The notes below the pieces were generated by a model. It was not told where the DNA came from and made no database searches. It saw only the letters and a list, made by a program, of their open reading frames with translations. A stretch of 29,544 nucleotides of DNA, taken from positions 1 through 29,544 of the IMG/VR virus record IMGVR_UViG_3300044568_005038. One strand, 5' to 3'. Below are positions 37 through 29,544 of this stretch, in pieces. How positions within the stretch are numbered: position 1 is the first letter of the stretch; every line of letters begins with the position of its first letter. Both the position numbers and the translations under genes were made by a program. The stretch is from a virus.

Positions 37-127
37 GGAGAGGTGGCTGAGTGGCCGAAAGCGCCCGTTTGCTAAATGGGTATACCCCAAAAGGGTATCG
101 TGGGTTCGAATCCCATCCTCTCCGCCA
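37..127 (+). tRNA. tRNA-Ser(GCU)
   Basis: The 7-bp acceptor stem GGAGAGG/CCTCTCC closes the gene, followed by discriminator G and an encoded CCA at 125-127. The anticodon stem CCCGT/ATGGG encloses the seven-base loop TTGCTAA, with anticodon GCT at 71-73, reading serine AGC/AGU codons. A long variable arm (roughly 82-100) and the TTCGAAT T-loop confirm class II tRNA-Ser. It is the likely host gene at the prophage edge: an integrase gene begins about 200 bases downstream on the same strand, so the 3' half of this tRNA probably contains the attL core. Confidence 0.96.
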
Positions 128-8526: not shown

Positions 8527-9300
8527 GTGAAAGCGATTAATGCATTCCTAGTAATTGCTTTGTCCGTCGTCACCTTCCTTATCGGCAGGGAATACTTTCC
8601 CAGAATAATAGACAGACCTGTTGTTGTTGAGAGGGAGGTTAAAGTGCCTGTTGAGGTTACTGTTGAAGTCCCTGTTGTTAAGGAGGTGATTAAGGAGGTT
8701 ATTAAAGAAGTTCCGGCTAAATTAACACCCGACCAAGCTGATGCTGTCCTGACTTTTGCGCTCATAGAGGCGGCTTCTGATCGCGTTGCGACTCCTGCGG
8801 ATACTAAGGTTTTGCGTGTAGGTGACGGAAAATTTCACCCCGAAGTTTCGAAAGTTTCCAAGATTTGGGCTGGTAGCGACAAGATACGGGTTATCATTGC
8901 GCTTGATGGACGTGCGGTTGATTGCTGCGATAAGGACGAAATTTTCGCATTAATTCGTCGTCGACTTCAACAAGTAGGATTAGATGGCGAAATGGCCTCG
9001 AGCGATTTCACGAAGGCGATGTTTCAGTCGTCGAATATCATTAGGGTCCAGGTCCGGCTTATGGAGGCTACCCAGTATTCTTACAGTGGAGTCGTTTCTA
9101 CGTCTTTTCACCAGACCGCAATCGGTATGAACAGGGAATCGAATCCAGCGGTTGGGCCGTGGAAGAGGTTTTTAGTAACTCCCGTTGAAGAGGATACCCT
9201 GGTTCGAGCTGGCAAGACTGTTGCCAACTCATATATCAAGGAGAATATCGATAACCAACTTGCCATTGTATGTGGTGAAATTGCACGAGGCCTTAAGTGA
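8527..9300 (+). CDS. Membrane-anchored Val/Glu-rich hypothetical protein
   Basis: A 257-residue protein starting at a GTG. Residues ~4-20 (INAFLVIALSVVTFLIG) form an uncleaved N-terminal membrane anchor. Residues ~31-63 are a repetitive stalk (VEREVKVPVEVTVEVPV, then VKEVIKEVIKEVP) of short Val/Ile-Lys-Glu-Val units. Residues ~67-257 are a mixed globular domain, presumably periplasmic, with no recognised family. The repeat codons create strong internal Shine-Dalgarno-like sequences at 8679-8699. It is followed 4 bases later by a secreted Sel1 protein, suggesting a shared transcript and a common location in the envelope. Confidence 0.7.
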   Translation: MKAINAFLVIALSVVTFLIGREYFPRIIDRPVVVEREVKVPVEVTVEVPVVKEVIKEVIKEVPAKLTPDQADAVLTFALIEAASDRVATPADTKVLRVGDGKFHPEVSKVSKIWAGSDKIRVIIALDGRAVDCCDKDEIFALIRRRLQQVGLDGEMASSDFTKAMFQSSNIIRVQVRLMEATQYSYSGVVSTSFHQTAIGMNRESNPAVGPWKRFLVTPVEEDTLVRAGKTVANSYIKENIDNQLAIVCGEIARGLK

Positions 9301-9304
9301 CCGC

Positions 9305-10327
9305 ATGACCCTCCGCACTTCCACCCTTGTTTTCGCGTTTGTGTTTTCAGCCGCTCTTTTGGCGGATCCCGGCTCGAAGGAAGATAGACTGTTGTTTGCA
9401 CAGAATAAGATTAAGGCAGACGCTGGGGATTCAAATTCTCAAATCTACCTTGGTATTGCTTACGGAATGGGGACTGGCGTCCCTCAGGATGACGTACAGT
9501 CCACGCAGTGGTTCCTCAAGGCTGCCCTTCAGGGGAACGAGATGGCCATTGGTTTAATGGGCAGTTGTTACGAAACGGGAAAGGGCGTTCCAATAGACAA
9601 GTCTGAGGCTCTCAAGTGGTACATCCGGGCTGCCGGATGTAATCCCAGCTTTCCTGAGACCAGGATGTTTACTGAGAAAGTTGCAACTTGGTACCGAGAT
9701 GGAATCGGTACTGAAAAAGATTTCCAGAAAGCTCGCAGTTGGTTCAACAAGGCAGCCGAACTTGGTTCTGGTTCAGCTTATTGTCAGATTGGGCGTATGA
9801 TTAGGAACGGAGAAGGCGTGATTGCTGACCCTGCGGCGGCGGTCATCTATTTTGAGAGGTCTGCTGGAATGGGTGATCGTGAGGCGATGTATTACCTGGG
9901 TGTCGCCTCTCAGTTTGGCATGGGCGTAGATAAGAACATAGATAAGGCTGCAAGTTATTTGAAGAAGTCTGCCGAACTTGGCTATGCACCGGCGCAGTAT
10001 AATTATGCATTAATGCTCAAAGCTGGTACCGGCGTGACCAAGGATCTTGCTCTGGCATACAGTCTTTTTGCAAAAGCCTCTATGCAGTCTGTTTGGCCTG
10101 CTCAGATGCAGCGAGGCATCATGCTCGCCAACGCGCAGGGGTGTGAACGCGATTTAGTCGAAGGCCTCGCCTGGTTGTTGCTTGCCGGAGATGCGAATGA
10201 ATTGGCTGCGGAGCCCCGTGATGATCTCATCAAGGTGCTTTCGCCATATGATGTTACTGCTGCTAAGCGAAGGGCTAAGCAGCTATCGGATGACATCGAG
10301 AAGGATAAATTACCTTTGGCTAGGTAA
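9305..10327 (+). CDS. Secreted Sel1-repeat protein
   Basis: A 340-residue protein with an N-terminal signal peptide (MTLRTSTLVFAFVFSAALLA, likely cleaved before DPG) and about six Sel1-like repeats, each a ~36-residue helical hairpin. Visible units include AQIYLG-type SQIYLGIAYGMGTGVPQDD, AIGLMGSCYETGKGVPIDK, AYCQIGRMIRNGEGV, AMYYLGVASQFGMGVDKN and AQYNYALMLKAGTGVTKD. Sel1 repeats mediate protein-protein contacts and are often found in exported or signalling proteins. The ATG at 9305 is preferred over an upstream in-frame start at 9185, because the latter would bury the signal peptide and lies within the preceding gene. It forms a pair with the next Sel1 gene. Confidence 0.88.
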   Translation: MTLRTSTLVFAFVFSAALLADPGSKEDRLLFAQNKIKADAGDSNSQIYLGIAYGMGTGVPQDDVQSTQWFLKAALQGNEMAIGLMGSCYETGKGVPIDKSEALKWYIRAAGCNPSFPETRMFTEKVATWYRDGIGTEKDFQKARSWFNKAAELGSGSAYCQIGRMIRNGEGVIADPAAAVIYFERSAGMGDREAMYYLGVASQFGMGVDKNIDKAASYLKKSAELGYAPAQYNYALMLKAGTGVTKDLALAYSLFAKASMQSVWPAQMQRGIMLANAQGCERDLVEGLAWLLLAGDANELAAEPRDDLIKVLSPYDVTAAKRRAKQLSDDIEKDKLPLAR

Positions 10328-10389
10328 GATTATATTTCCAGACGCGAGTTTTGTTGCAACGATTTATCTGCCGACTATATCTTCCTATT

Positions 10390-10824
10390 ATGCGCACCTT
10401 GATTTTTTTAATGCTCACATTGAGCGCCAGTCTGTTCGCAAAACTTTCCCCGGACGAGCTTATCGACATGGCAATTAAGGCCGATCGAGGTGATGCTATT
10501 GCGCAATCTAAGTTGGGGGAGTACTATTATGTGGATAATAAGAATTACGAAAAGGGATTGTACTGGATGAACCGCGCTGCGGCGCAGGGGAACTCTTGGG
10601 CAATGTTTCTTCTATATGACGCCTATCGGTTTGGCCAAGGGGTAGCCAAGGATGAGGTTCTTGCTTATAAATGGATTCTGCTGATTCAGTCACCAGGGAA
10701 CCTTGCTAAGATTTGCCGCGAGAATTTTGAGGCTATCATCACTCCCGCTCAGCGTGAAATGGGTGCCAAGCTTGCTGCTGAATTTAAGGTTAAGCCAGAA
10801 GTTGGTGCGCTGCCCGTAAAGTAG
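10390..10824 (+). CDS. Short secreted Sel1-repeat protein
   Basis: A 144-residue protein with a signal peptide (MRTLIFLMLTLSASLFA, cleavage likely after LFA) and about two Sel1-like repeats: DAIAQSKLGEYYYVDNKNYEKG and SWAMFLLYDAYRFGQGVAKDEV. The C-terminal part (ITPAQREMGAKLAAEF) resembles the final helix of its larger neighbour, which ends with a similar Asp/Ala-Lys-Arg-Ala segment. The two may have arisen by duplication. The ATG at 10390 starts the signal peptide; an earlier TTG at 10351 is unlikely. It is the last gene before the packaging module. Confidence 0.82.
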   Translation: MRTLIFLMLTLSASLFAKLSPDELIDMAIKADRGDAIAQSKLGEYYYVDNKNYEKGLYWMNRAAAQGNSWAMFLLYDAYRFGQGVAKDEVLAYKWILLIQSPGNLAKICRENFEAIITPAQREMGAKLAAEFKVKPEVGALPVK

Positions 10825-10958: not shown

Positions 10959-10990
10959 GCTGAACACCTCCCACATTGTGGGAGGTCAGC
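10959..10990. promoter_or_regulatory. Strong hairpin just upstream of terminase genes
   Basis: ACCTCCCAC (10966-10974) and GTGGGAGGT (10978-10986) pair perfectly around ATT. GCTG (10959-10962) and CAGC (10987-10990) extend the stem with a 3-base bulge. No T-run follows. It lies 33 bases before terS, a place where packaging (pac/cos) sites and late-operon control sites often occur. The function is inferred. Confidence 0.45.
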
Positions 10991-11023
10991 CGCGATGACT
11001 TTCGCCGGCGGAGGGGTTGTCTC

Positions 11024-11722
11024 GTGCGCATGGAGCACGGGCCCACAGTCGAACCGACGCCGGAGGCGGGGCCTCAACATAACCACGAGCCTGCATTGCA
11101 TGGCTGCGCCCAACTCAGCCTCCCCACGCTAGGTGACGAGGAAGGCCCGTGCTCCTCCCTTCCTCTCGGCTTCTTCCGCCTTAGCCCGCGCGAGCGGATC
11201 TTCGTCGAGGGCGTGATGAAGCACGGTCGCTACCGGCAGGCCGCCCTAGACGCCGGCTACAGTGCCCGCAACGCCGCCTGGATCGCCAGCGACCTGGTCC
11301 GCCGTCCTGACATCCAAGCGGTCTTCATGCAGCTCTGCCACCGGGCCGAGGAGCGCGTGACCGCCCGGGCCGGCGACTGCCTCGGCAAGTCCGAGTCCTA
11401 TTCCTTCGACCTGGCCTTGGCCCGCGAGCGCCGCGCAGACGCGCAGCGCAAGGTCGACGAGTCGGCCGACATGGTCGCCCGCGAGATCGCGGAGGCCGAG
11501 CTCACTGATGCCCGCAAGGAGGAGGACCGCCTGAGCCGGATCTGCTCCGACTGGACCAAGCTCGCCTTCCTCGCGATGGGCAAGGGACTGCCTGAGTCCA
11601 AGGTCACCAACCACACTACCATCGTCACCGGGGGCCGCGTCATCGAGCCGGCTCTCCTGGAGGCCATCACCCAGGCCCGCCTCGACGGCGTCCTTGAATC
11701 CCGGGAGGCCGTGCCCGCATGA
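11024..11722 (+). CDS. terS: Terminase small subunit
   Basis: A 232-residue DNA-recognition subunit of the packaging motor. The N-terminal third is variable. A helix-turn-helix-type region at ~55-100 (LSPRERIFVEGVMKHGRYRQAALDAGYSARNAAWIASDLVRRP) has the 'QAAxxAGYS' signature of phage small terminases. The following long helices (ARERRADAQRKVDESADMVAREIAEAEL) probably oligomerise. The start is uncertain: the GTG at 11024 follows GAGGGG by 7 bases, while the ATG at 11030 is close by. A TTG at 10976 lies in the hairpin loop and was rejected. It overlaps terL by 4 bases (ATGA) and opens the late operon. Confidence 0.8.
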   Translation: MRMEHGPTVEPTPEAGPQHNHEPALHGCAQLSLPTLGDEEGPCSSLPLGFFRLSPRERIFVEGVMKHGRYRQAALDAGYSARNAAWIASDLVRRPDIQAVFMQLCHRAEERVTARAGDCLGKSESYSFDLALARERRADAQRKVDESADMVAREIAEAELTDARKEEDRLSRICSDWTKLAFLAMGKGLPESKVTNHTTIVTGGRVIEPALLEAITQARLDGVLESREAVPA

Positions 11723-14031: not shown

Positions 14032-14044
14032 TCAAAACCGATGA
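13766..14044 (+). CDS. Small lipoprotein nested out of frame, outer-spanin candidate
   Basis: A 92-residue lipoprotein. The N-terminus MLPKTRYSAYVLATLLTSFALTGC is a classical lipoprotein signal with lipobox LTGC (Cys24). The mature ~68 residues contain LRLQAGTPVQTKDGPYNPQQ, a tryptophan-containing DETWHSQTEYLRLEQEV helix and a basic C-terminus. It lies in a different frame over the 3' half of the preceding gene and ends 13 bases after it; its stop overlaps the portal start (ATGA). Rz/Rz1 spanin pairs show this overlapping layout, and Rz1 is an outer-membrane lipoprotein. The lipoprotein call is good; the spanin role is inferred. No strong Shine-Dalgarno precedes the ATG. Confidence 0.68.
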   Translation: MLPKTRYSAYVLATLLTSFALTGCACASKRTSGSLQGSPRILRLQAGTPVQTKDGPYNPQQDETWHSQTEYLRLEQEVLMLSRAAQARNQNR

Positions 14045-15936
14045 GCAATAAGTTGCATGACAAGGTCCGGGCCGCCCTGGCCGCACGCTCCCAGTGGGAG
14101 ATGCGCCAGTCGCGCTGGCACGAGATGCGTCATGACGGCGAACGCCGTCAAGTCCGCCCATGGAAGGGCGCGGCCGACATGCACTTCCCCCTGGCCGACA
14201 TGCTCATCGAGAAGATGAAGCCGGCCTACATCCAACAGGTGTTCGCCGCCGATACCATCGCCTCCTTCACCGGCCTGGACGCAGACGCCGCCCGCTGGCA
14301 AATCGCCGCCGGCCAATGGTTCGACCACATCCTCAAACAGCGGAGCAACTTCGAGGAGTTCATCGTGCGTGCCGTCGACACGATGCTCGTTTCGGGTCGC
14401 GCTCCCGTGAAGGTCCGCTGGAACGCCTCCCGCGAACGTCTCGAGTTCACGGTTATCCCTCCGCTGCGGCTCATCGTCCCGCCCTGGACCCGCAACTTGG
14501 CCGAGGCCGACTGGATTTGCCAAGTGCATACCATCTCGGCCGACGAGTACGCCCGCTCCGGCCTCTATGACCAGGACCCGGACTTGGTCCGCTCCATCAC
14601 TGGCCGCGGTAGCGAGGCCGGCGTCGTTGCCGAAACCAATCGCCGTCTCCGCGAGGGCGTCACGCACTCCGACCAGGAGATGATAGTCGTCTGGGAAATC
14701 TGGCACCGCGACAGGGAAGGGCGCTGGGTTGTTTCCACAGCCAGCCCGCTCGCCCCCGACAAGCCTCTCCGCCCGGACTTCGTCTGTCCCTATAACCATG
14801 GCCCCTTTGCCGAGGGTGCCTGTCCCTTCGGTTCGTTCACCTATGAGCTTAAGGAGGACGGCTGGCACTCTCCGCGCGGCATCCCCGAGCGCGTCGCCCC
14901 GTTCGAGGCCTCCCTGAACAAGCTCTGGAACACCCAGATGGATTGGCTGACGCTCACCTGTCAGCCGCTCTTCTACACGCCCTCCGGTGGCCTCGAGAAC
15001 AATGCCTCGGTCACCTTCCGCCCGGGCCAGATCCTGCCCTACGAGGTCAAGTCCGTGGACTTCCCTCCGTCCCCGCAGGACATCCCCATGCAGATGCAGG
15101 CGGCCCGCGCGGTCGCCGAGCAGCTCGTCACCGTGCCGGACTTCGGCATGGGCCAGGCTTCCGGCATGGCCGGCCACAAAGGCGCCAAGACCGCCACCGA
15201 GGCCTCCATCATCTCGCAGGTGATGGGTAACAACACCGAGCTGCGCTCCCGCATCTTCCGCCGCGAGCTTGGCGAACTCCTCCGCATGGCCTGGGCGATT
15301 TGCGCCCAGCACATGAGCGGAGACTTGAAGTTCTATTTCGACAGCCAGGTCGGTCAGCTCGAGGAGGCCGCGCTCAAGGCCTCGTACGCCATCGAGCCCA
15401 ACGGCTCCGGCGATACCTCCAACCGCCCGCTCCAGATCCAGAAGGCTTACTCTCGCCTGCAGGCCTTCTCGGGTAGTCCCTACGTCGACCAGGCTGAACT
15501 CACCAAGTCCGCCCTTGAGGTCGACGATCCGCGCATCGTGCGCCGTCTCTTCCGCGAGCCCGAGCAGAAGGCGGCTTCCCAGATGGAGGACCAAGCCCAG
15601 GAGATTTCCATCATGACCATGGGCTTCCCCGCCCAGGTCCAGCAGACCGACGACCACTCCGCGCACCTTCAGAGTCTCATCGGTTATATCCAGCGCCGTA
15701 TCGGCACCGGCGAACGCATCGCTCCCGAGCAGGGCATCCTTTTCGCGCAGCACGCCATGCAGCACTTCGACGCGCTCAAGAAATCCGACCCCGCCGGCGC
15801 CAAGCAACTGGCCCCGGTGGTTCAGGAGATCGCCCAGATGGGTGCCGCGGCCGTGCAGGCCGTCCAGATGCAGGCCCAGCAGGCTCAAGCGTCACAGTCA
15901 CAGCCGTCACAGTCCCCCCAACCCGTTTCCGCATGA
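14041..15936 (+). CDS. Portal protein
   Basis: A 631-residue protein that would form the dodecameric DNA gateway at the capsid vertex. The N-terminal part (RRQVRPWKGAADMHFPLADMLIEKMKPAYIQQVF) matches the 'PWxGASDxxxP' pattern of P22/N4-type podovirus portals. The middle includes the wing/stem region (SPRGIPERVAPFEASLNKLWN, with a 'GIPExL...E..LN' pattern). The helix following MGQASGMAGHKGAKTATEASI is the usual conserved TATE motif. The C-terminus is Gln/Ala/Ser-rich, like portal barrels or tails. It starts inside the lipoprotein stop (ATGA) and overlaps the next gene by 4 bases. The length fits podovirus portals. Confidence 0.86.
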   Translation: MSNKLHDKVRAALAARSQWEMRQSRWHEMRHDGERRQVRPWKGAADMHFPLADMLIEKMKPAYIQQVFAADTIASFTGLDADAARWQIAAGQWFDHILKQRSNFEEFIVRAVDTMLVSGRAPVKVRWNASRERLEFTVIPPLRLIVPPWTRNLAEADWICQVHTISADEYARSGLYDQDPDLVRSITGRGSEAGVVAETNRRLREGVTHSDQEMIVVWEIWHRDREGRWVVSTASPLAPDKPLRPDFVCPYNHGPFAEGACPFGSFTYELKEDGWHSPRGIPERVAPFEASLNKLWNTQMDWLTLTCQPLFYTPSGGLENNASVTFRPGQILPYEVKSVDFPPSPQDIPMQMQAARAVAEQLVTVPDFGMGQASGMAGHKGAKTATEASIISQVMGNNTELRSRIFRRELGELLRMAWAICAQHMSGDLKFYFDSQVGQLEEAALKASYAIEPNGSGDTSNRPLQIQKAYSRLQAFSGSPYVDQAELTKSALEVDDPRIVRRLFREPEQKAASQMEDQAQEISIMTMGFPAQVQQTDDHSAHLQSLIGYIQRRIGTGERIAPEQGILFAQHAMQHFDALKKSDPAGAKQLAPVVQEIAQMGAAAVQAVQMQAQQAQASQSQPSQSPQPVSA

Positions 15937-17303: not shown

Positions 17304-18290
17304 ATGTTCGATACTTCCCTCATCCAGACGCAGCTTCGCCCTCACTTCGAGAAGAAGCTGCTCACCACCGCCCAGCACACCCTGGTATTCGACCAGTTCG
17401 CGCGCGACGGCGACCTGCCGCGTAACATCGGCAGCCGCACCGTCCGCTTCTTCCGCCGCGAAGAGGCTGACCTCACCCGCCCGGGCGCCCCGATCGCCCT
17501 CACCGAAGGCGTCGCACCGACCGTTTCCCGCGACGTCACCTACCAGTCCGTCGAGGTCACGCTCTCGCAGCGCGGCCAGGTGGCCAAGGTCACCGACGTC
17601 GTCAACCACGTCGGCCTCCTGAACTACATGAACTCCACCATCTTCCTGATGGGCCAGGAGTGCGCGCTCGATGCCGACAGCATCATGCGCGACCAGCTCA
17701 CGGCCGGCCTGAACAAGCGCTACGCCGGCGGCTTCACGTCGTTCTCGGCCCTCAAGGCAGGTGCGGCTTCCGCCGCCCGCATCACCCCGCAGGACGTCTT
17801 GGACGCCGCGACGCAGCTCCGCGTGAACAAGGCCGTCCCGATCCAGGGTAAGGCCTTCGTGCTCGTGGTTCCTCCGCAGGTCGAGCGCGACATCCGCAAC
17901 AACCCCGAGTGGCAGAACATGGTCCGCTACCAGTACGCCGACAAGCTCTTCAACAACGAGATCGGCGACCTGCACGGCGTGCGCCTGGTGTCCCACACGA
18001 ATCCGTTCGTCGAAGGCGCCACCGAAGGCACCTACACGTCCAATCACTCGGACCCGGACGCCGTGTTCTCGTCCTACTGCCTGGCCTCCGAGGCCTACGG
18101 CGTGACGAAGATGGCAAGCCTGGGCGGTTCTCCGTTCAAGCCGTCCATCATCATCAACGACAAGCCCGACAGCCTCAACCCGCTGGCTCAGTACATGACC
18201 GTCGGCTGGAAGTCGTACTGGGGCAGCTGCGTGCTGAATCCGAAGTTCGGCATCACGCTCAAGTCCAAGACGGAGTTCCGCGCCTCCTAA
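17304..18290 (+). CDS. Major capsid protein, N4-gp56 family
   Basis: A 328-residue HK97-fold coat protein. The N-terminal region (RPHFEKKLLTTAQHTLVFDQFARDGDLPRNIGSRTVRFFRREEADL) and the following block ALTEGVAPTVSRDVTYQSVEVTLSQRGQVAKVTDVV reproduce the pattern of N4-gp56 family capsid proteins: a 'G.tv.fr' strand, 'LtEGv.P' and 'qyG....tD'. A-domain-like residues (VLVVPPQVERDIRNNPEW and DLHGVRLVSHTNPF) follow. The length is usual for the family. The gene is preceded by a pyrimidine-rich leader without a Shine-Dalgarno and followed by a terminator, so it may have the strongest transcript of the operon. Confidence 0.88.
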   Translation: MFDTSLIQTQLRPHFEKKLLTTAQHTLVFDQFARDGDLPRNIGSRTVRFFRREEADLTRPGAPIALTEGVAPTVSRDVTYQSVEVTLSQRGQVAKVTDVVNHVGLLNYMNSTIFLMGQECALDADSIMRDQLTAGLNKRYAGGFTSFSALKAGAASAARITPQDVLDAATQLRVNKAVPIQGKAFVLVVPPQVERDIRNNPEWQNMVRYQYADKLFNNEIGDLHGVRLVSHTNPFVEGATEGTYTSNHSDPDAVFSSYCLASEAYGVTKMASLGGSPFKPSIIINDKPDSLNPLAQYMTVGWKSYWGSCVLNPKFGITLKSKTEFRAS

Positions 18291-20019: not shown

Positions 20020-20289
20020 ATGCCGACCTACGAATACGAATCCGTGGACCCGCCGTTGCGCGTCGTGGCTATCCGGTCCGTGGCCGACCGGGACCTCCCG
20101 ATTGTTCTGCGCCGCATCGTGGTGCCGTCCTCGGTCTCGCTCGCCAACACCGATGGCGGCCGCTCCCAGGAGCTCACGCTTTCCAAGGACGTCATGGCTG
20201 GTTACGCAAAGCTTGAGGACTCCAAGGGGTCCACCTTCGCCCGCAAGGAGAAGGACCGCATCCGCAAGGCATGGGAGGGCAGCGTCTGA
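20020..20289 (+). CDS. Small hypothetical protein with FmdB-like N-terminus
   Basis: An 89-residue protein starting MPTYEYES, 2 bases after the preceding stop. Its opening and the following RSVADRDLPIVLRRIVVP recall FmdB zinc-ribbon proteins, but every expected CxxC cysteine is missing. The C-terminal half (LSKDVMAGYAKLEDSKGSTFARKEKDRIRKAW) is helical and basic. No reliable family assignment. It lies between the lectin-like and collar genes and is probably a structural or assembly accessory. Confidence 0.55.
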   Translation: MPTYEYESVDPPLRVVAIRSVADRDLPIVLRRIVVPSSVSLANTDGGRSQELTLSKDVMAGYAKLEDSKGSTFARKEKDRIRKAWEGSV

Positions 20290-20290
20290 C

Positions 20291-21073
20291 ATGGCAATCT
20301 CCGTTACGATTCAACGGCCTAACCTGCAGGACGGGGACATCCTCGATGCTGCGGCCCTGACGGCCATCACCGCGGTCAACGTCGCCGTCACTGGCGCCGT
20401 GGCATCCGACGAGTTCCTTGCCTATAAGGCTCAAGTCACCGCCGCACTGAACGCGGCCGTGGCGGCATTGGTGCTCCCGCCGGTCGGTGCGGTCATCCCA
20501 TTCGCGGGCTTCGATTCACCGACCGGTTGGCTACCGTGTGACGGCCGCTCGCTCGTGCGCTCGGAGCATCCGAAGCTCTACGCAGCAATCGGCATCTACT
20601 GGGGCTCGGTCGACGGCGAGCACTTCAACCTGCCTGACCTGCGCGGTCGCACGCTCTTCGGCGTGGATGGCTCCACCGGCCGCACCAACGTCGCAGCGAC
20701 GCTAGGTTCCATTGGTGGCTCACAGGCCGTGACGCTGGGGCTCGGCGACCTTCCCGAGCATACCCATTACGTCCAATCCACGACTGGCATCACCAGTTCC
20801 ATCGGCGACCACACTCATCAGCTTTCCGAGAAGGTCGTCCTGCAGAAGGTCCAAGACGGCTACCCTGACGAGGACATCTGGGGCAACGGCTATAACCAGA
20901 CTCCAGCCTATGCGTTCCCCGACGACGATCCTGACCGTTGGACCTCCGCCGCCGGCGGCCATAGCCACAGTGTGGAGATTCCCTCGCGGTACACCGACCC
21001 GGCTGGTTCGGGCGCGGCCCACGATAACATCCCGCCCATGGCGGCCATCAACTGGATGATCCGCGTCAGCTGA
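20291..21073 (+). CDS. Tail-collar domain protein
   Basis: A 260-residue protein. Residues ~1-55 are an N-terminal helix-rich region. Residues ~60-120 (PPVGAVIPFAGFDSPTGWLPCDGRSL, then PKLYAAIGIYWG and FNLPDLRGRTLFGVDG) match the phage tail-collar domain found in tail fibres and microcystin-dependent-type proteins. The middle is His/Gly-rich (EHTHYVQ, DHTHQ, GHSHSV), perhaps with metal-stabilised repeats. The C-terminus NIPPMAAINWMIRVS is the usual collar-domain end. It probably forms receptor-binding or fibre tips. The start at 20291 follows the preceding stop immediately; longer frames upstream are spurious. Confidence 0.85.
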   Translation: MAISVTIQRPNLQDGDILDAAALTAITAVNVAVTGAVASDEFLAYKAQVTAALNAAVAALVLPPVGAVIPFAGFDSPTGWLPCDGRSLVRSEHPKLYAAIGIYWGSVDGEHFNLPDLRGRTLFGVDGSTGRTNVAATLGSIGGSQAVTLGLGDLPEHTHYVQSTTGITSSIGDHTHQLSEKVVLQKVQDGYPDEDIWGNGYNQTPAYAFPDDDPDRWTSAAGGHSHSVEIPSRYTDPAGSGAAHDNIPPMAAINWMIRVS

Positions 21074-21074
21074 C

Positions 21075-21665
21075 ATGAACGTCGCCCAGATCATCGACCA
21101 CGCCTGCCGGCTTGCCGGCATGGAGGACGCGCCCACCCGCGCGATCGCCGGCGAGTTCCTGCGCAACCGCTGGTCCACGATTTGGAACTCCTACCTTTGG
21201 AAGACCGCCCTGCAGGCCCAGGTGTTCGGCCCCGACGCCTCCCGCGAACGGCTGACCTTGTCCTCGCCCGCGGAGTTCATCTGCGAGGTTAGGGCAGGGG
21301 AGGTCCCATACTTCCCGCAGGCTGACGCCGACCCCTCGGGGCTGTGGTTCAAGCTCGAAGGGCAGGACGTCGTGCTCGCCCCTCCGATGCCCGCAGGCCT
21401 TTCTTGCATTGTACGATGGAAGCCGGCCGCACCGGTCTTGGCCGATGCCTCGACGATTCCATTACCCGGAGGAGCGGAGTGCCTCTTGGCCTTCGTGACG
21501 GCCGACCTCTACGAGTACATGCGACAGGTGGCCAAGTCCCAGGCGAAGCTCCAGGAGGCCGCGGCCCTGCTGGAGCGCATGCGCTCGATCGAGGTGGCGC
21601 AGCGAACCCGCTCCGTGATGTTGTTGCCACACGAATCCGTCAGATGGGAGGAGCCCTATGCCTGA
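21075..21665 (+). CDS. Putative head-tail neck protein
   Basis: A 196-residue protein. The N-terminal half is helical (NVAQIIDHACRLAG, then RAIAGEFLRNRWSTIWNSYLWKTAL). A beta-rich middle (SPAEFICEVRAGEVPYFPQ and LWFKLEGQDVVLAPPMPAG) leads to a long C-terminal helix (LYEYMRQVAKSQAKLQEAAALLERM). This architecture fits podovirus head-completion or gp4-like neck proteins placed between capsid and tail genes. The sequence match is weak. It overlaps the next gene by 8 bases. Confidence 0.45.
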   Translation: MNVAQIIDHACRLAGMEDAPTRAIAGEFLRNRWSTIWNSYLWKTALQAQVFGPDASRERLTLSSPAEFICEVRAGEVPYFPQADADPSGLWFKLEGQDVVLAPPMPAGLSCIVRWKPAAPVLADASTIPLPGGAECLLAFVTADLYEYMRQVAKSQAKLQEAAALLERMRSIEVAQRTRSVMLLPHESVRWEEPYA

Positions 21666-23205
21666 CTTCTTCATCGATTCGCTCGACGACCCTTTGCTGG
21701 ACGTCGGGGCCCGTGCCTTCACCGCCGTGAACTCGGCCGTGAACCCCACGGTCATCGACCCGGGCACGCTGCGCAGCTCCCGCAACCTCTACATGGAAGG
21801 CGACGGCGTTTGCCGCCGCCGGCCTTGCCTCGTGAAGGTCATCGGTCCCGGCGCTCCCGCCGTGGTCTCTTCGATCTGGTACGACACGCCTGACATGGAG
21901 GCCATGGTGCTTTGCCGCGACGGTCAGCTGTCGGCCTATCCAGGCGACATCGAGGGTTTCGTTGAAACCGCCATCGGCATTTCCGGCCTCGGCGAAGGCC
22001 GCGTGCCGCTTGCCCAGTTGGTCGACCTCTTGGTCGTCGCCCGGCCTGAGGGTGGTTTGTCGTGGGCCCGCTACGCAGGAGGAGCCTGGGGCACTGGCTC
22101 CGTCTCGGTCGACGCCGAGGGCACGGCCCTTCCGCGTTTCTCTTTCCTTTGCCCTCACGCGTTCCGGATGTTCGCGGCCCAAGAGGGCTCCGACATCCTC
22201 TGGACCTCCGACGTCCTTTCGGCCGACGTGCCCGCCGCTTGGAGCCAGTTGCGCACCTTGCGCATCGGCACCGGCGAAGGTGACCCCATCACCGCCATCC
22301 TTCCGTTCCAGGAGCAGGGGCTGCTCGTCCTGAAGGAGCATTCCGTCTGGCTGCTCGACGTGACCGGCGCTGATCCCTCCGTGTGGGCCATCCGCCGCCT
22401 GACGGGCCTTGCCGGTTGCATCGCCGGTCGAACGGCCGTCCAGCTTGGGCAGGACGTGCTCTTTCTTTCCCGGTTGGGGGTGCTCAGTCTTTCGGCGTTG
22501 TCGCGCAGCGACTCGGTCAGCACCGCGAGCTCCGTCTCGGCCCCGATCCGCGCCGACTTCGACCGCATTAACTGGTCCATCGCCTCCGACTCCTTCGCCG
22601 GCGTCTGGCGCCAGCATTACCTGCTCGCCGCGCATCGCGACACGGAGACCTCGCCCGCGCATCTGCTCGCTTTCAACACCGAGACCAAGACCTGGTCGGG
22701 CCTTTGGCCCATCGCCACTCCCTTGTCGGCCTCCTGCATCACCCGCATGGGCGGCCGCCAGGAGACCATGGTCATGACGGCCGACGGCGCCGTTTGGCGC
22801 CTGGACCCCAAGGCCTCCACCGAGCCTCTCGGGGATGGCTGGCTTGAGGCCGTCGGCGAAACCAAGTGCTTCGACTGGGACGCGGGCCACGTCGGCAAGC
22901 GCGCCATGCGCCTCGAGGTTACCATGGAATGCCGCTCGGCCGTGGACATCTCCGTGCAGGTCCGCCCCGACCAGGAGCTGCCCGTGGAGGTTTCTGGCGT
23001 CATGTCTTACGCTTCCTCCTGCGTGTTACCGGTCACGCTGCCCATCCAGCTCGACCGCAACCGCATGGTCCGCAAGGCCTGGAACCTGCGTCCGCTGCTT
23101 CCCCGTCCCGTCAGGGACCTTTCGGTCGTGGTGCGTGCCCGTTGCCGCGGAAGCTTCGCCTTGGGAGGGGTCACGCTCAGCGCGTGCGCCGAGGGAGTCC
23201 GATGA
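21658..23205 (+). CDS. Large beta-rich tail/hub protein, P22 gp10-like candidate
   Basis: A 515-residue protein made almost wholly of short beta strands with repeated turns, such as VVSSIWYDTPDMEAMVLCRDG, LVDLLVVARPEGGLSWARYAGG, GLLVLKEHSVWLLD, and DVLFLSRLGVLSLSAL. These are spaced like blades of a propeller, as in P22 gp10-type tail-hub or stabilisation proteins of podoviruses. The N-terminus (AVNSAVNPTVIDPGTLRSSRNLYMEGDGVCRRRPC) has the arginine/NLY pattern common in such proteins. The genes on both sides fit a podovirus neck-to-tail order. The start overlaps the preceding gene by 8 bases. Confidence 0.5.
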   Translation: MPDFFIDSLDDPLLDVGARAFTAVNSAVNPTVIDPGTLRSSRNLYMEGDGVCRRRPCLVKVIGPGAPAVVSSIWYDTPDMEAMVLCRDGQLSAYPGDIEGFVETAIGISGLGEGRVPLAQLVDLLVVARPEGGLSWARYAGGAWGTGSVSVDAEGTALPRFSFLCPHAFRMFAAQEGSDILWTSDVLSADVPAAWSQLRTLRIGTGEGDPITAILPFQEQGLLVLKEHSVWLLDVTGADPSVWAIRRLTGLAGCIAGRTAVQLGQDVLFLSRLGVLSLSALSRSDSVSTASSVSAPIRADFDRINWSIASDSFAGVWRQHYLLAAHRDTETSPAHLLAFNTETKTWSGLWPIATPLSASCITRMGGRQETMVMTADGAVWRLDPKASTEPLGDGWLEAVGETKCFDWDAGHVGKRAMRLEVTMECRSAVDISVQVRPDQELPVEVSGVMSYASSCVLPVTLPIQLDRNRMVRKAWNLRPLLPRPVRDLSVVVRARCRGSFALGGVTLSACAEGVR

Positions 23206-23629: not shown

Positions 23630-24733
23630 ATGGGAAGCAGTTCCGATCCACCTCCTCCGCCCGACATCAAGGCAGAGAGCCAGAAATCCGTCGAAGCCGA
23701 CCTCGGCACGCTGGCCTTGCGCCGTGCCGCCGAGCTCGGTGCATCTAAAGGCCTAGGCTTCTACGCCGGCGGTAAATATTACAAAGATAAGGCGGGGCTC
23801 GACGCCGACCTGGCTTCCTCGAAGCAAGCGCTGGCCGAGGCTCGCGCCGCAGCCGGCGAACGCACCGGGCCGGGTGGCCGAATCTTGGTGCAGAATAAGG
23901 ACATGCAGGCGAAGGCCTCGCAACTTGAGGCCAAGATCAAGGAGCTCGAGAACCCGCAGGACTTCAGCGGCTTGGCTGACTCGGAGTTCGCCAAGAACGC
24001 CCTAGGTATCCTGCTCGACAGCAATGACTCGGTATCGCGTCGGCAGCTCGCCTTGCGCAAGGAGCTAGGCGTCGAGAACGTCAAACAGACGGTAGAAGAG
24101 CTCAAGGCGGCCGATCCGGAATCCTGGGCGCTCCGCCAGAGGCTCCTCGGTGAGGTGGGCGACGAGCGCGTCAGTCCCGAGCTCCAGAAGCTCCTCGATG
24201 ACGCGAAGTCCGAGTATGCGCTCGGCTCCAGGCTCGATGACTCCACCGCCCGCGAGGTCGAGCAGGCCGTACGCTCCGCCCAGGCCTCTCGAGGCAACGT
24301 GCTCGGCAACGCAGCCGCCACGCAGGAGGCAATGGCCCGCGGCGAGATGGGCAACCAGCGCAAGCAGCAGCGCGCCCAAAACCTGGCCGCGCTCGACAAC
24401 GCGGTCTCCGGCCGCAAGCAGCAACGGCTTTCGGATATTTCGGCCGTCCTGAACAACGCCGTGGTCGGCCAGTTCGGGGCCTTGAGTGGCGCACAGAACG
24501 GAGCCGTCGGCTTCAATGCCGTCCAAGGTAAGGGCGGCACCAATATCGCCGGTAACGCCGTCCAGATGGGCCTCGGCTTTGCCCAGAATAACTACTCGGG
24601 CCAGATCGAGACCTGGAAGGCCGACCAAGGGAATCCCTGGACCAACATCCTCTCCGGCGCCGCGGGCATGGCCCTCGGCAGCTTCACCGGAGGCATCGGC
24701 ACCGGACTCGCCGCCAAAGCCCTCGGCAAATAA
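23630..24733 (+). CDS. Putative internal virion/ejection protein
   Basis: A 367-residue protein with a Pro-rich N-terminus (DPPPPPDIK) and long helices (LADLASSKQALAEARAAAGE and MQAKASQLEAKIKELEN). A Gln/Asn/Ala-rich middle follows, then a Gly/Ala-rich hydrophobic C-terminus (GNPWTNILSGAAGMALGSFTGGIGTGLAAKALG). Hydrophobic glycine-rich ends of this type are typical of podovirus proteins ejected into the envelope to build the DNA channel. The ATG at 23630 has an ACCC leader with no Shine-Dalgarno. A longer overlapping frame (from 22835) is spurious. Confidence 0.55.
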   Translation: MGSSSDPPPPPDIKAESQKSVEADLGTLALRRAAELGASKGLGFYAGGKYYKDKAGLDADLASSKQALAEARAAAGERTGPGGRILVQNKDMQAKASQLEAKIKELENPQDFSGLADSEFAKNALGILLDSNDSVSRRQLALRKELGVENVKQTVEELKAADPESWALRQRLLGEVGDERVSPELQKLLDDAKSEYALGSRLDDSTAREVEQAVRSAQASRGNVLGNAAATQEAMARGEMGNQRKQQRAQNLAALDNAVSGRKQQRLSDISAVLNNAVVGQFGALSGAQNGAVGFNAVQGKGGTNIAGNAVQMGLGFAQNNYSGQIETWKADQGNPWTNILSGAAGMALGSFTGGIGTGLAAKALGK

Positions 24734-24739
24734 TCTACC

Positions 24740-25717
24740 ATGCAACGCTGGGACCAATACTTCCTTGAGGGCCTTGGACGCGGAGTCCAGATGGCCGAAC
24801 GCTCCGCCGACCGCGAGCGCGAGGATACCTACCGCAACAAAGTCCTCGAGGACAACAAGACGACGCGGGAGGAGGACCGTAAGACTCGAACCGCCGAACG
24901 TGATGCCGACCGTGCCGAGGCCGAGAAGCGCCTCGAAGCGGAGAAGGCGCTACGCGAGCGCGAGCTCGCCCTGCGGGTTCGCCAGCTCGACGAGGCGAAG
25001 GCCCGTGCCGAGAAGGACGATGCCCGGGCCACGGAGCTCGAAAGGACCCGCACCCGCATGAGCACCTTCGACCGCCATTTCAAGGCGGGCACGGAGATGA
25101 GCCCCGAGGACGTGGCCGCCGAAATCGAGGACCTGCAGAGTCGGGACGACCTAGAGGACGATGACCAGGTTCGTTTGGACGCCCTCCGTCGTGCCTACAG
25201 CGTGCAGCGTTCCGTGATGCGCAACATCCGGGGTAAGCGCGTCTCCATCGACCCCAACGATCCGCTGACCCGCACGGAGGAACCGACCTTGAGCCAAGGT
25301 GTGGACCTTCCTGAGGTCGGAGCAGTGTCGAGAGAGGGAGTCTCCAATGCGATGAAAGAGGGCATGGGTCGTCTCCGTCGTCCAGGAGCGCCTCCGGCTG
25401 CTACGCCACCTGCGGCCACTGGTTCGCGTGGTGTACTCGATATTCTCCCGGGCGTCGACCCCGACGGCGTTTCCAGCCGTCTTAACTCTCTCATCCAGGA
25501 GAAGCAAAACGAGCTCGACGAACATAACCGCGAAATCGCCGCGGGCGATGAGCGCCACGGCTTCTTGAACATGTGGTCCCGTCGCGTCTCGGCTTCCGAG
25601 GCCGACGCCAAGATCCGCAAAGCCAAGGAGGACAAGGCCGCTTTGGACGCCATCCGCGCTGACCCGAGTAATGCCCGCGCCCGTGAGGTGCTTGAGCGCC
25701 TGAATCGCGACTACTAA
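24740..25717 (+). CDS. Long coiled-coil hypothetical protein
   Basis: A 325-residue protein. Residues ~20-105 are a highly charged Arg/Glu-rich coiled coil (EDRKTRTAERDADRAEAEKR, then LRERELALRVRQLDEAKARAE). An acidic helical segment (MSPEDVAAEIEDLQSRDDLEDDD) and a Pro/Ala-rich linker follow, then a second helical region. No domain is recognised. It lies between the ejection-like protein and the polyvalent protein and may be a second internal virion protein or an assembly factor. Confidence 0.6.
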   Translation: MQRWDQYFLEGLGRGVQMAERSADREREDTYRNKVLEDNKTTREEDRKTRTAERDADRAEAEKRLEAEKALRERELALRVRQLDEAKARAEKDDARATELERTRTRMSTFDRHFKAGTEMSPEDVAAEIEDLQSRDDLEDDDQVRLDALRRAYSVQRSVMRNIRGKRVSIDPNDPLTRTEEPTLSQGVDLPEVGAVSREGVSNAMKEGMGRLRRPGAPPAATPPAATGSRGVLDILPGVDPDGVSSRLNSLIQEKQNELDEHNREIAAGDERHGFLNMWSRRVSASEADAKIRKAKEDKAALDAIRADPSNARAREVLERLNRDY

Positions 25718-25748: not shown

Positions 25749-28700
25749 ATGGCTTTTGACCTAGACGCCTACGCCGAGGGACGCCCACAGCCCCGACGCC
25801 GCAATACCTACCTCGACCAGTGGGACGAGGCCCGCGCCAACACCGAAGACCCGGGTACGCTTGGCGGCGTGTGGAACAACGTGAAGAAGGGCTACTACGG
25901 CGCCATGCGTGCGTCGTCCCTTCAGGACGCCAAGGACGAGCAGGAGCGCCCCTTCCGTCCGATCGCCGCCGACGAGGCCGTCGACGCCGCCGAGGCCGAA
26001 GCCCAGCGTCGCTATGAGCAGTCCGGCTCCGCGGCCGACGAGGCCCAGCTGCAACGGCTCTCCCGTCGTTCTTATTCCGCGAACAACCCTGCTTTCGAGC
26101 AGAAGGCCCGCGAGACCTCGACGACCAACAAGAAGGCCTTCGTCGCCCGCAAGGCCGGCGAGGTGGAAGGGTATACGCGCAAGATCCAATCTCTCCCCAA
26201 CGCCGAGGCCTATCAGCGTTGGGAACGCGCCAGCGGCGGTGATGCCTGGGGTGCTTTCCTTTCTGATCCGTTCGAGGTGACTTCCAATATCGTCGCCGGT
26301 AGCGCTTCGCAGATGGCTACCCAGATGGCCGTCGGTGCCGCCGCAGGCTTCGTCGGTGGCTCGGTCGCCGGTGCGCCTGGTGCAACCGTTGGTTCCGCCT
26401 TAGGCGCGGGCCTTTCCAGCTTCTCCGGCGAGTATGCCAGTTCGTTCCTCGATTCGATGGAAGAGGCGGGTATCGACATGTCGGACCGCGACTCAATCAT
26501 CAAAGGCCTATCGGATTCCAACGCCGTCGCCCGTGCCAAGAGTTTCGCCATGAAGCGGGCGGTCCCGGTGGGAGTCTTCGATATGATCAGCCTTGGCATC
26601 GCCGGCAAGTTGATCGGTAAGCCCGGTATCGCTGCGGTGGAGAAGGGTATCATGGGCTTGACTAAGCGCGCCGCCTCCAAGGCTGGCGAGATGGCTACCG
26701 AGGCTACCATTCAGGGTGGCCTAGGTGCCGCCGGTGAAGCCACGGCGCAACTCGTCTCCAAGGGGAAGGTCGACGACTGGAAGTCCGTCGCTGGTGAGTT
26801 CATCGGTGAGTTCGGCGGTGCCCCCGGCGAGGTGGCTGTCGGTGCTGTCACCAAGGCGTATGGCGCCACCAAGGCCGCCATGAGCCCGCAAGTGAGTATT
26901 TCCGCCAACCTCGCCGCCGCCGCCGAAGAGGCCGCCACGGCCCGCTCGGCTCCCATTGACGAAACCCCCAAACTCGCCGCAGCCCGTCGCCGCCTCGAGG
27001 CTGAGGCCCGCCTTCGGGCCGACGCCGGCGAAGAAGACGTGGATGTCGGTGGTGCTGCCCCAGCGTATTCCCGTAAGCGCAAGCCGAAGAAAGCTCCGCC
27101 TGCTCCCGATCCGACGGTGAGCCCTTCTGGCGAGGCTCCGTTCGATGACCTCAAGACCTTCAATATCGACGGCAGGCTTTCGACCTTCGTCGAGCATCGC
27201 CAAGTCGCCGAGGTCGCAAGTGGCGTCGAATTCGTCCGCACCGCGGACGAGGCCGCGCACGTCGTGGCCGGCCTTCGCAAGTATCCCCAGGAGAACATTG
27301 TCCTTCTCATCACCGACGAGAACGGTCGCCCGATCCAGATCGCCCGCCACCAAGTCGGCGGTCCGACCTCTGCAGGTTTCAATCCGGGCCTGCTCATCGG
27401 CACCGCGGCTAGTACGCCCGGCGCCTCCGAGGTCTGGTTCGTTCATAACCATCCGTCGGGCAAGGCATCCTTATCGCCGGCGGACATCTCGGCATCAGGT
27501 GCGGTTCAGCGGCTTACCGAGGCCGCAGGGCTCAAGTACCGCGGAGCCATGGCTGTCGCGTTCAACAAGTATGCGATGATGGACGAGGGCGGAAGCATCC
27601 TCTCGAACCAGAGCATCCCCGCGATGGCCCGAAAGTTCGTGGTCCCGATGACCGAGCGCATGTATCGAAACGTCGGCTACCTCGGCCAGTCCGCCTTTAG
27701 CGACCCGTTGGTGGTTTCCCAGGAGATGCCCGGTCTGCTCGGTGGTCGCCCTGGTATCGTGTTCGCCAATAACGCAAACATGCCCGTGGCCGCGCTCCCT
27801 CTGACCGAGGAGGTGATGAAGCAGATGATCCAGCCCGGCGGCGCGAACCAGTACTTTGCCGCCCTTGAGCGCAGTAACGCCGTCAACGCCTTCCTGTATA
27901 CGGCAGATATCGACCCGGCCGAGCGCGTGAAGGTGATCGAGAATATCTCGCGCCTGGCTAATGCCTCCAAGGTTACGCTCCTGGACGCTATTGACGCGGC
28001 CGGCGTAACGCATTCCCGCCATATCATCGGTTACGACTCGCAGTTCCGTTCACGAGGTGAGGAGGGCGGGGCTTCGCCAGCTACCGGCCCGGAGGCCCAG
28101 GAACTCGTCCAGGCAATCCGCGAATCCTTTGGTAAGGCTACCGACAAGCTGCTCGAGCTCGGACGCATTCGTGTCGTCTCCAGCGTCGATCAGCTCACCG
28201 GTCTGCATCCGGACGACACCCGCGGCGTCGCGCTCTCCGACGGCACCGTCGAAATCGCCGCCCAGAACGTCGGCAAGGAGGAGGCCCGTGGCATGGTCCT
28301 CCACGAAGTCGGCGTCCACGTCGGGCTCGAGTCTATGGTCGGCCCTGAGCTCTTCCAGCACGCGCTCTCCGAGGTCGACCGCCTTATCGCCGAGGGTAAC
28401 GAGCATGCCGTCTCCGCTCGCGACTCCGTCCCGTCAGATACTCCGGATGCGATGCGCCGCGAGGAGCAGCTCGGCTACCTGATGGAGAACGCGCCCGAGC
28501 TGGGCTTCATCCGCAAGATCATCGCGGCCATCCGCGCCTGGGTCTACCGCTCCATTCCGGGCGGCCGCATGATGAGCCTTTCGGTCGGGGACCTGCAGGC
28601 CCTCGCGACCGCTGCCGTCCGTCAGGAGGCCAACCGCATGTCGAGCGACGAGACTGCGCAGGCGGCCCCGCGTCCGAGCCGTAAGGGCTTCCGTGTCGTG

Positions 28701-29544
28701 CAGTCTCCCGACGGCGGCTACAACTGGGGCGAGATTGGCTCGGCCGACGCCGACCAAGCCGGCATCGACCCCGGCCGCATCATGCTCAAGGACGGCTTCC
28801 ACTATGGCGATCACCGCGGCTTCGGTCTCGAGCACATCGAGATGCAGCACGGCGAGGAGATCCGCGGCCTGGGTATGGAGCCGACCGAGTTCGTCTACGA
28901 CGTCCTCCGTAACTACAATAACATCGCCCTCCAGGACGGCGGCCGCGTCGCGCTGATCAGCAACGCGCGACCGACGAGGGTCGTCATCTTGGATCCCCTC
29001 AACGGCGGGGGTTACTCGGTCCGCACCGCGTTCTACGACAACAGCGGCAACCTCTTCCGTCGCCTGAGCGAGAAGGGACAGGTCTATCGCCGCCGGAGCG
29101 GTCCTCCGCCGCCTCCGCCTCCGGGCGGTGGTCAGCCTGTCAGGCCTGTCAGCCCGTCAGGGGGGCCGCCCGGTCCGCAGTCAGGTGGACCTATCGTCAA
29201 AGGATACAGCCGGTCGGGAGGTCCGGCTCCGCACCCTACCGGGGCCTCCCTGGCTGACGCCGCCGTCAGCTCGGGAGGCATGAATTTGCCCCCTCAGGCG
29301 ACCCTGGAAGGCCTTTCAGAGGCTGACCTGACCGAGTACGCCAACCGGCTCAGTCAGGCGGCCCTAGGCTTTGCCATGGGTCACCCCGCCCGGGACCTCC
29401 TCCTGACCGCCCGGGATGAGGCCAGGAACCTCCTGATTGACCGCCGGACCCGTGGCGCCGTCCCGACGCCCAGCCCGGCCCAGCCGACCGGGACGGTCGT
29501 CCCTGAGCCCGATCAGGAGACGGAGGCCGCCTTGGCCGCCATCG
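25749..29544 (+). CDS. Large polyvalent protein (partial): JAB, Zn-peptidase and PBECR-like domains
   Basis: The frame opens at ATG 25749 and runs, unbroken, past the window end (at least 1265 residues). Residues ~1-170 are charged and helical. Residues ~173-377 are Gly/Ala-rich and hydrophobic with GE motifs (SGEYASSFLDSMEEAGID and AAGEATAQLV), like N-terminal regions of polyvalent proteins. Residues ~495-605 form a RadC-like JAB/JAMM domain: likely Glu515, His566-Asn-His568-Pro, then Ser576 and Asp579. Residues ~835-915 hold HEVGVH (His852, Glu853, His857) and a downstream EEQLGYLME with candidate third ligand Glu905/Glu906, as in zinc metallopeptidases. Residues ~975-1115 (GFGLEHIEMQH at 1024-1034) resemble PBECR nucleases. 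A PPPPPPP linker follows at 1119-1125. Placed after the ejection proteins, it is likely injected. Confidence 0.85.
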   Translation, partial: MAFDLDAYAEGRPQPRRRNTYLDQWDEARANTEDPGTLGGVWNNVKKGYYGAMRASSLQDAKDEQERPFRPIAADEAVDAAEAEAQRRYEQSGSAADEAQLQRLSRRSYSANNPAFEQKARETSTTNKKAFVARKAGEVEGYTRKIQSLPNAEAYQRWERASGGDAWGAFLSDPFEVTSNIVAGSASQMATQMAVGAAAGFVGGSVAGAPGATVGSALGAGLSSFSGEYASSFLDSMEEAGIDMSDRDSIIKGLSDSNAVARAKSFAMKRAVPVGVFDMISLGIAGKLIGKPGIAAVEKGIMGLTKRAASKAGEMATEATIQGGLGAAGEATAQLVSKGKVDDWKSVAGEFIGEFGGAPGEVAVGAVTKAYGATKAAMSPQVSISANLAAAAEEAATARSAPIDETPKLAAARRRLEAEARLRADAGEEDVDVGGAAPAYSRKRKPKKAPPAPDPTVSPSGEAPFDDLKTFNIDGRLSTFVEHRQVAEVASGVEFVRTADEAAHVVAGLRKYPQENIVLLITDENGRPIQIARHQVGGPTSAGFNPGLLIGTAASTPGASEVWFVHNHPSGKASLSPADISASGAVQRLTEAAGLKYRGAMAVAFNKYAMMDEGGSILSNQSIPAMARKFVVPMTERMYRNVGYLGQSAFSDPLVVSQEMPGLLGGRPGIVFANNANMPVAALPLTEEVMKQMIQPGGANQYFAALERSNAVNAFLYTADIDPAERVKVIENISRLANASKVTLLDAIDAAGVTHSRHIIGYDSQFRSRGEEGGASPATGPEAQELVQAIRESFGKATDKLLELGRIRVVSSVDQLTGLHPDDTRGVALSDGTVEIAAQNVGKEEARGMVLHEVGVHVGLESMVGPELFQHALSEVDRLIAEGNEHAVSARDSVPSDTPDAMRREEQLGYLMENAPELGFIRKIIAAIRAWVYRSIPGGRMMSLSVGDLQALATAAVRQEANRMSSDETAQAAPRPSRKGFRVVQSPDGGYNWGEIGSADADQAGIDPGRIMLKDGFHYGDHRGFGLEHIEMQHGEEIRGLGMEPTEFVYDVLRNYNNIALQDGGRVALISNARPTRVVILDPLNGGGYSVRTAFYDNSGNLFRRLSEKGQVYRRRSGPPPPPPPGGGQPVRPVSPSGGPPGPQSGGPIVKGYSRSGGPAPHPTGASLADAAVSSGGMNLPPQATLEGLSEADLTEYANRLSQAALGFAMGHPARDLLLTARDEARNLLIDRRTRGAVPTPSPAQPTGTVVPEPDQETEAALAAI
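29131..29184 (+). repeat. GTCAG-rich short tandem repeats in polyvalent-protein linker
   Basis: Five copies of GTCAG begin at 29131, 29139, 29148, 29156 and 29180, the first four spaced 8-9 bases apart within imperfect units like CTGTCAGGC. They encode the Gln/Val/Arg/Ser/Pro-Gly linker after the PBECR-like domain. Codons AGG, GGA, GGG, TCA and CGG become common here, unlike the CGC/GGC-dominated codons upstream, suggesting a module junction. Confidence 0.55.

Follow-up and report, generated by a model that had tools for sequence, protein, structure and literature searches.

What function is served by a giant gene that joins a Gly/Ala-rich region to several enzyme-like domains and lies at the end of a block of virion genes? 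We analysed the whole IMG/VR record IMGVR_UViG_3300044568_005038 (29544 bases, hereafter the window), whose features are collected in Table 1. The reading that we favour is that the gene product is probably the third and innermost of the ejection proteins in a short-tailed phage, and a polyvalent effector as well. The frame is open for 1265 codons, and the source holds no sequence past the gene. The record itself stops at 29544 and the contig end truncates the gene, in agreement with a first-pass annotation in which it encoded at least 1265 residues and ran on past the window.

Table 1. Features of the window that bear on the giant gene; residue numbers refer to its product.
Feature	Residues	Position	Strand	Remarks
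Terminase small subunit		10976-11722		
Portal protein, SU10-type		14041..15936	+	profile matches
Major capsid protein		17304..18290	+	phrog_1357 E 2.4e-49
Tail collar fibre protein		20102..21073	+	Pfam Collar E 4.7e-17
Virion protein		21658..23205	+	profiles of amidase, head-closure Hc3 and internal virion protein families; ortholog in L047
367-aa protein, candidate ejection/virion protein		23630..24733	+	second upstream of giant gene; L047 ortholog in same order
325-aa charged protein, candidate ejection protein		24740..25717	+	directly upstream of giant gene
Giant polyvalent gene	1-1265	25749..29543	+	1265 codons, open up to record end
Gly/Ala-rich membrane-type domain	about 131-371	26139..26861	+	
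RadC-type JAB	499-613	27243..27587	+	JAMM residues E515, H566, H568, D579
Domain X	653-749	27705..27995	+	between JAB and peptidase
Zincin-like metallopeptidase	781-970	28089..28658	+	HExxxH at 852-857 (28302-28319); third ligand candidate E906
BECR-like RNase domain (predicted)	980-1115	28686..29093	+	candidate catalytic H1029, T1093

Scanning genomes with an alignment of the peptidase identified the same protein in a contig of a Comamonadaceae MAG (L045) and in two contigs of an Opitutae MAG bin (L046 and L047), with hosts as binned, at 59-62% identity to the window protein over the aligned length. The whole domain order recurs in L045 and L046, and L047 shares it up to its contig end inside the peptidase. 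Completion of the frame failed in the record, which holds nothing downstream, but the C-terminus could be read in the L046 ortholog with the help of a neighbouring contig. L046 and contig C107 of the same bin overlap by exactly 141 nt, in frame, and the ORF across the overlap stops after about 2274 residues; the join is an assembly inference, and this C-terminus thus comes from an ortholog spread over two contigs. Approximately 660 residues near it are homologous to the C-terminus of the giant phage protein L027 (E 4e-48), a shared stretch in which Pfam found no match. When IMG/VR was scanned for a complete copy, first the single protein and then the alignment of orthologs serving as query, the only return was L002, whose copy stops at residue 135. 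Pairwise dN/dS between L045 and L046 amounts to 0.02-0.16 in every part of the protein and to 0.03-0.08 for the JAB, X, peptidase and BECR-like domains. The recurring order in the orthologs, together with purifying selection on every domain, points to a maintained protein rather than a chance assembly.

The JAB/JAMM domain proposed from the first reading is borne out by Pfam, by the structural model and by invariant residues, and can be refined to the RadC type. The Pfam RadC profile matches residues 502-613 with E 2.1e-10 (41 bits against a cut-off of 22.1), and all four JAMM residues are invariant among the 19 sequences aligned, with S576 nearly so. The AF2 model of the region reaches a pTM of 0.80, with a pLDDT of about 90 over the domain, and its best PDB match is RadC 2qlc (Foldseek E 8e-5). 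Comparison of the model with 2qlc by VIA yields Z 15.6 and an rmsd of 2.3 over 121 residues, as against Z 7-8 for other JAB enzymes. The substrate of the domain is probably a nucleic acid or a nucleotide. The window protein and its IMG/VR relatives, one of which carries LPD38 and InPase and another PBECR1 and MuF_C, place RadC in phage virion modules.

An uncatalogued domain, here termed X and additional to those of the first-pass annotation, follows the JAB domain in all 18 relatives aligned and also in a conjugative plasmid. The modelled order of helices and strands in X repeats that of the JAB domain, with the HxH motif missing. When JAB and X were compared with hhalign, one direction gave a full-length, in-register match with a probability of 3%, and the other an out-of-register match. 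A PDB sequence search with domain X found no relative. On the modelled element order, X is possibly a degenerate JAB domain.

The metallopeptidase called next in the chain likewise stands, with conserved ligands and a zincin fold in the model, but its motif had been misread as HExxH: the sequence is LHEVGVH, i.e. HExxxH. Across 17 sequences, H852, E853, G855, H857 and E906 do not vary. The model displays a zincin core composed of an N-terminal helix, three strands and two helices, and its best PDB rows are zincins of the lethal-factor/PPEP kind (Z 6.1). A zincin-like MPTase with an HEXXH or HEXXXH motif and a downstream Glu helix has been described for polyvalent proteins (Iyer et al. 2017, PMC5512222). 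Residues 781-970 match gp69 of Burkholderia phage JC1 (E 4e-10) as well as giant proteins from plasmids and IMG/VR, and the relatives carry ddrB-ParB, ART-PolyVal, LPD37, LPD38 and MuF_C domains, which are marks of polyvalent proteins.

A peptidase held in common with JC1 gp69, annotated as DarB-like antirestriction protein, and with ddrB-ParB giant proteins would also suit a protein whose main task is antirestriction in the manner of P1 DarB/DdrB or Lessievirus DarB, packaged and injected to protect the incoming DNA and with RadC acting on DNA. We nevertheless regard this as unlikely, as Pfam searches of the 1265 residues that can be read and of the C-terminus of the ortholog turn up neither a methylase nor a helicase or ParB domain. 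Assignment to the DarB/DdrB class itself was rejected on the same searches, which detected neither a methylase-helicase dyad nor a DdrB-like ParB.

For the last readable domain, the claim of a PBECR-like nuclease probably holds for the fold, which resembles barnase and colicin D-type RNases in the model, and not for the Pfam families. PBECR and MuF_C profiles of Pfam gave no match at E up to 10 for the window, L045, the L043 stretch or the solo homolog, which rules against membership in a Pfam PBECR family. A PBECR1 profile search of the record returned nothing, and neither did a search for peptides of the domain in viral contigs and by tblastn in phages. Homologs were found in the orthologs, in a stretch of the polyvalent protein L043 and in a solo protein of 152 aa; the five homologs compared all keep H1029, in the first helix, and T1093, in the fourth strand. 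Five of the six PBECR families have been described with this pairing of a helix His and a Ser/Thr in strand 4. In the low-confidence model (pLDDT 45-61), the element order, an N-terminal helix with the His followed by four strands, and the residue placement match the BECR scheme, and the PDB rows for model residues 249-337 consist mainly of CdiA-CT, colicin D, colicin E5 and BrnT (Z 4.5-7.3). Residues 980-1115 may represent a BECR-like clade that has no Pfam model, a candidate RNase family. The solo protein (L070:1480-1935) comes from a different genome of the family to which L045's genome belongs, and could be an RNase or toxin that acts on its own.

The hydrophobic Gly/Ala-rich N-terminal region noted at first reading proved real and homologous to the N-termini of giant proteins from two phages. 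In a search against three sequences, to which these E-values apply, residues ~136-345 of the window protein matched the N-terminal region of the giant protein of Limnohabitans phage DC33 (E 5e-18) and the corresponding region of gp16 of Pseudomonas phage AF (E 3e-13); tblastn of the domain in all phages gave E 6e-6. The PHROG virion RNA polymerase profile matches the domain with E 8.5e-6. Neither HMMs against N4 and LIT1 nor profile-profile comparison with six vRNAPs gave a significant match to an N4-type N-terminus. Identity as an N4-like virion RNA polymerase was discarded, as Pfam, applied to the 1265 aa and to the C-terminus of the ortholog, detects no T7-type RNA polymerase domain. Phage DC33 (L060, PQ492659.1) is filed as Inoviridae; at 39 kb, and encoding a polyvalent protein of 3125 aa that resembles those of tailed phages, it looks misclassified.

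Placement of the giant gene among virion genes, as first described, is corroborated by Pfam and PHROG profiles for the portal, capsid and collar genes upstream. The order from collar through virion genes to the giant gene is common to the window and L047. Orthologs of the 325-aa protein adjoin the giant gene in L045, L046 and L047; the 367-aa protein has no PHROG match. Among eight JAB-X loci with the upstream gene checked, the giant gene directly follows a gene of an endolysin/internal virion protein family in six (IMG/VR contigs L032, L033, L034, L037, L041 and L042), and in phage AF the gp16 gene is preceded by two internal virion proteins and an endolysin. Synteny and relatives thus put the giant gene in what would be the last ejection-protein slot of podoviruses, the position of T7 gp16 and N4 gp50. 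Direct comparisons with JC1 gp61, gp68 and portal proteins gave no clear homology. At L039:2-2197, the gene in front of a giant protein with RadC has matches to profiles of DarB-like proteins and of the N4 virion RNA polymerase, which again hints at an ejection-type region in common. Proteins with Sel1 repeats, one ORF having six repeats, are encoded upstream of the terminase genes (window 9185-10824).

An ordinary structural ejection protein like T7 gp16 or N4 gp50 would also fit the gene's place in the virion module and its N-terminal domain; the enzyme-like domains would then be remnants or serve only to shape the channel. Against this speak the JAMM, HExxxH and BECR His/Thr residues, invariant in the aligned relatives, and the strong purifying selection on the enzyme domains, and we give such a purely structural role only a slight chance.

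A tRNA-Ser(GCT) gene lies at the start of the record (window 37-127), with a tyrosine integrase frame directly after it (2-1552). The arrangement is that of a prophage integrated at a tRNA gene, and the phage is probably temperate; no second copy of the tRNA-Ser end was found within the window. Alternatively, the protein would not be packaged at all: the host would make it in late infection, or the prophage would express it, for host takeover or against superinfection. This would suit a probably temperate phage with its integrase beside tRNA-Ser, a packaging supported by analogy, and the action against rival elements also considered by Iyer et al. (PMC5512222), but its probability is just as slight, given the gene's constant location among virion genes and the packaging shown for JC1 gp69 and N4 gp50.

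Returning to the dual role as ejection protein and effector, the giant protein would most likely travel inside the capsid and leave through the tail before the genome does. Mass spectrometry of purified JC1 virions recovered 51 unique peptides of gp69 (PMC9144972, Table 6), which supports packaging of the window protein by analogy. The Gly/Ala-rich domain may help to build the inner-membrane part of the ejection channel, which the N-terminal domain of N4 gp50 is thought to join (PMC12633501). The cargo behind it would enter the cytoplasm, comprising the RadC-type JAB domain with its partner X, a zincin that might cut the chain into working pieces or cut a host target, and a putative BECR-type RNase. 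The frame, its domains with their conserved catalytic residues and order, the purifying selection and the synteny with virion genes are observed here; we infer packaging, ejection, self-processing and every enzymatic activity, with synteny and the analogy to JC1 gp69 pointing to packaging and delivery.

The suspicion that the combination might be new was justified: apart from close orthologs, the domain set is unmatched in the records and literature searched. Domain shuffling is the rule in the polyvalent class. Two elements are new here, namely RadC inside phage-type polyvalent proteins, always followed by the uncatalogued domain X, and the putative BECR-like clade that has no Pfam model. The 2017 survey by Iyer et al. 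(PMC5512222), according to which there is disagreement over what RadC does, placed it only in polyvalent proteins of conjugative elements. That RadC occurs with its metal ligands intact and with an unvarying partner domain, in proteins that are probably injected, points to a substrate of importance during the first minutes of an infection. It is conceivable, though we would not count on it, that RadC-JAB and X form a conserved two-lobed counter-defence enzyme, one lobe an active and the other a degenerate JAB domain, which phages inject with their DNA and which has passed between them and conjugative plasmids, the two together with the BECR clade making up an undescribed injected toolkit. Residues of about 470-755, spanning RadC and X, offer a small construct for testing RadC.

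Among the known systems, JC1 gp69 (DarB-like, 4515 aa) shares a homologous HExxxH-type peptidase and is the last large gene of a podovirus virion module. It is about twice as long as the completed ortholog, the 29% identity is confined to the peptidase region, and tblastn found no match to RadC in it. The N4 virion RNA polymerase gp50 is also giant, and is packaged and ejected; its N-terminal domain is likely of the membrane kind, and one subdomain is zincin-type with HExxH (PMC12633501), whereas the window protein lacks the RNA polymerase domain, and the N-terminal likeness failed the profile-profile test. Phage AF gp16 and the DC33 giant protein share the homologous N-terminal domain, and in AF the gene occupies the same position after internal virion proteins; these proteins contain LPD22 with LPD23 or ART-PolyVal, and HExxH motifs, but no RadC. 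In a polyvalent protein of the Pseudomonas sp. KHPS1 conjugative plasmid, encoded between conjugation genes, a RadC JAB domain is followed by domain X at 28% identity, and the same open frame continues into a protein annotated as zincin-like metallopeptidase. At L012:11800-12825, the open frame of that metallopeptidase begins ~340 codons further upstream and takes in the RadC domain, and the annotated start may be too late. The orthologs L045, L046 and L047, all unannotated, have the same domain order as far as readable and the same upstream genes. The window protein itself belongs to the known polyvalent class (Iyer et al. 2017): predicted RadC, zincin and BECR-like enzyme domains are joined in one ORF, the zincin motif is accompanied by the downstream Glu E906, and the gene stands in a late virion setting.
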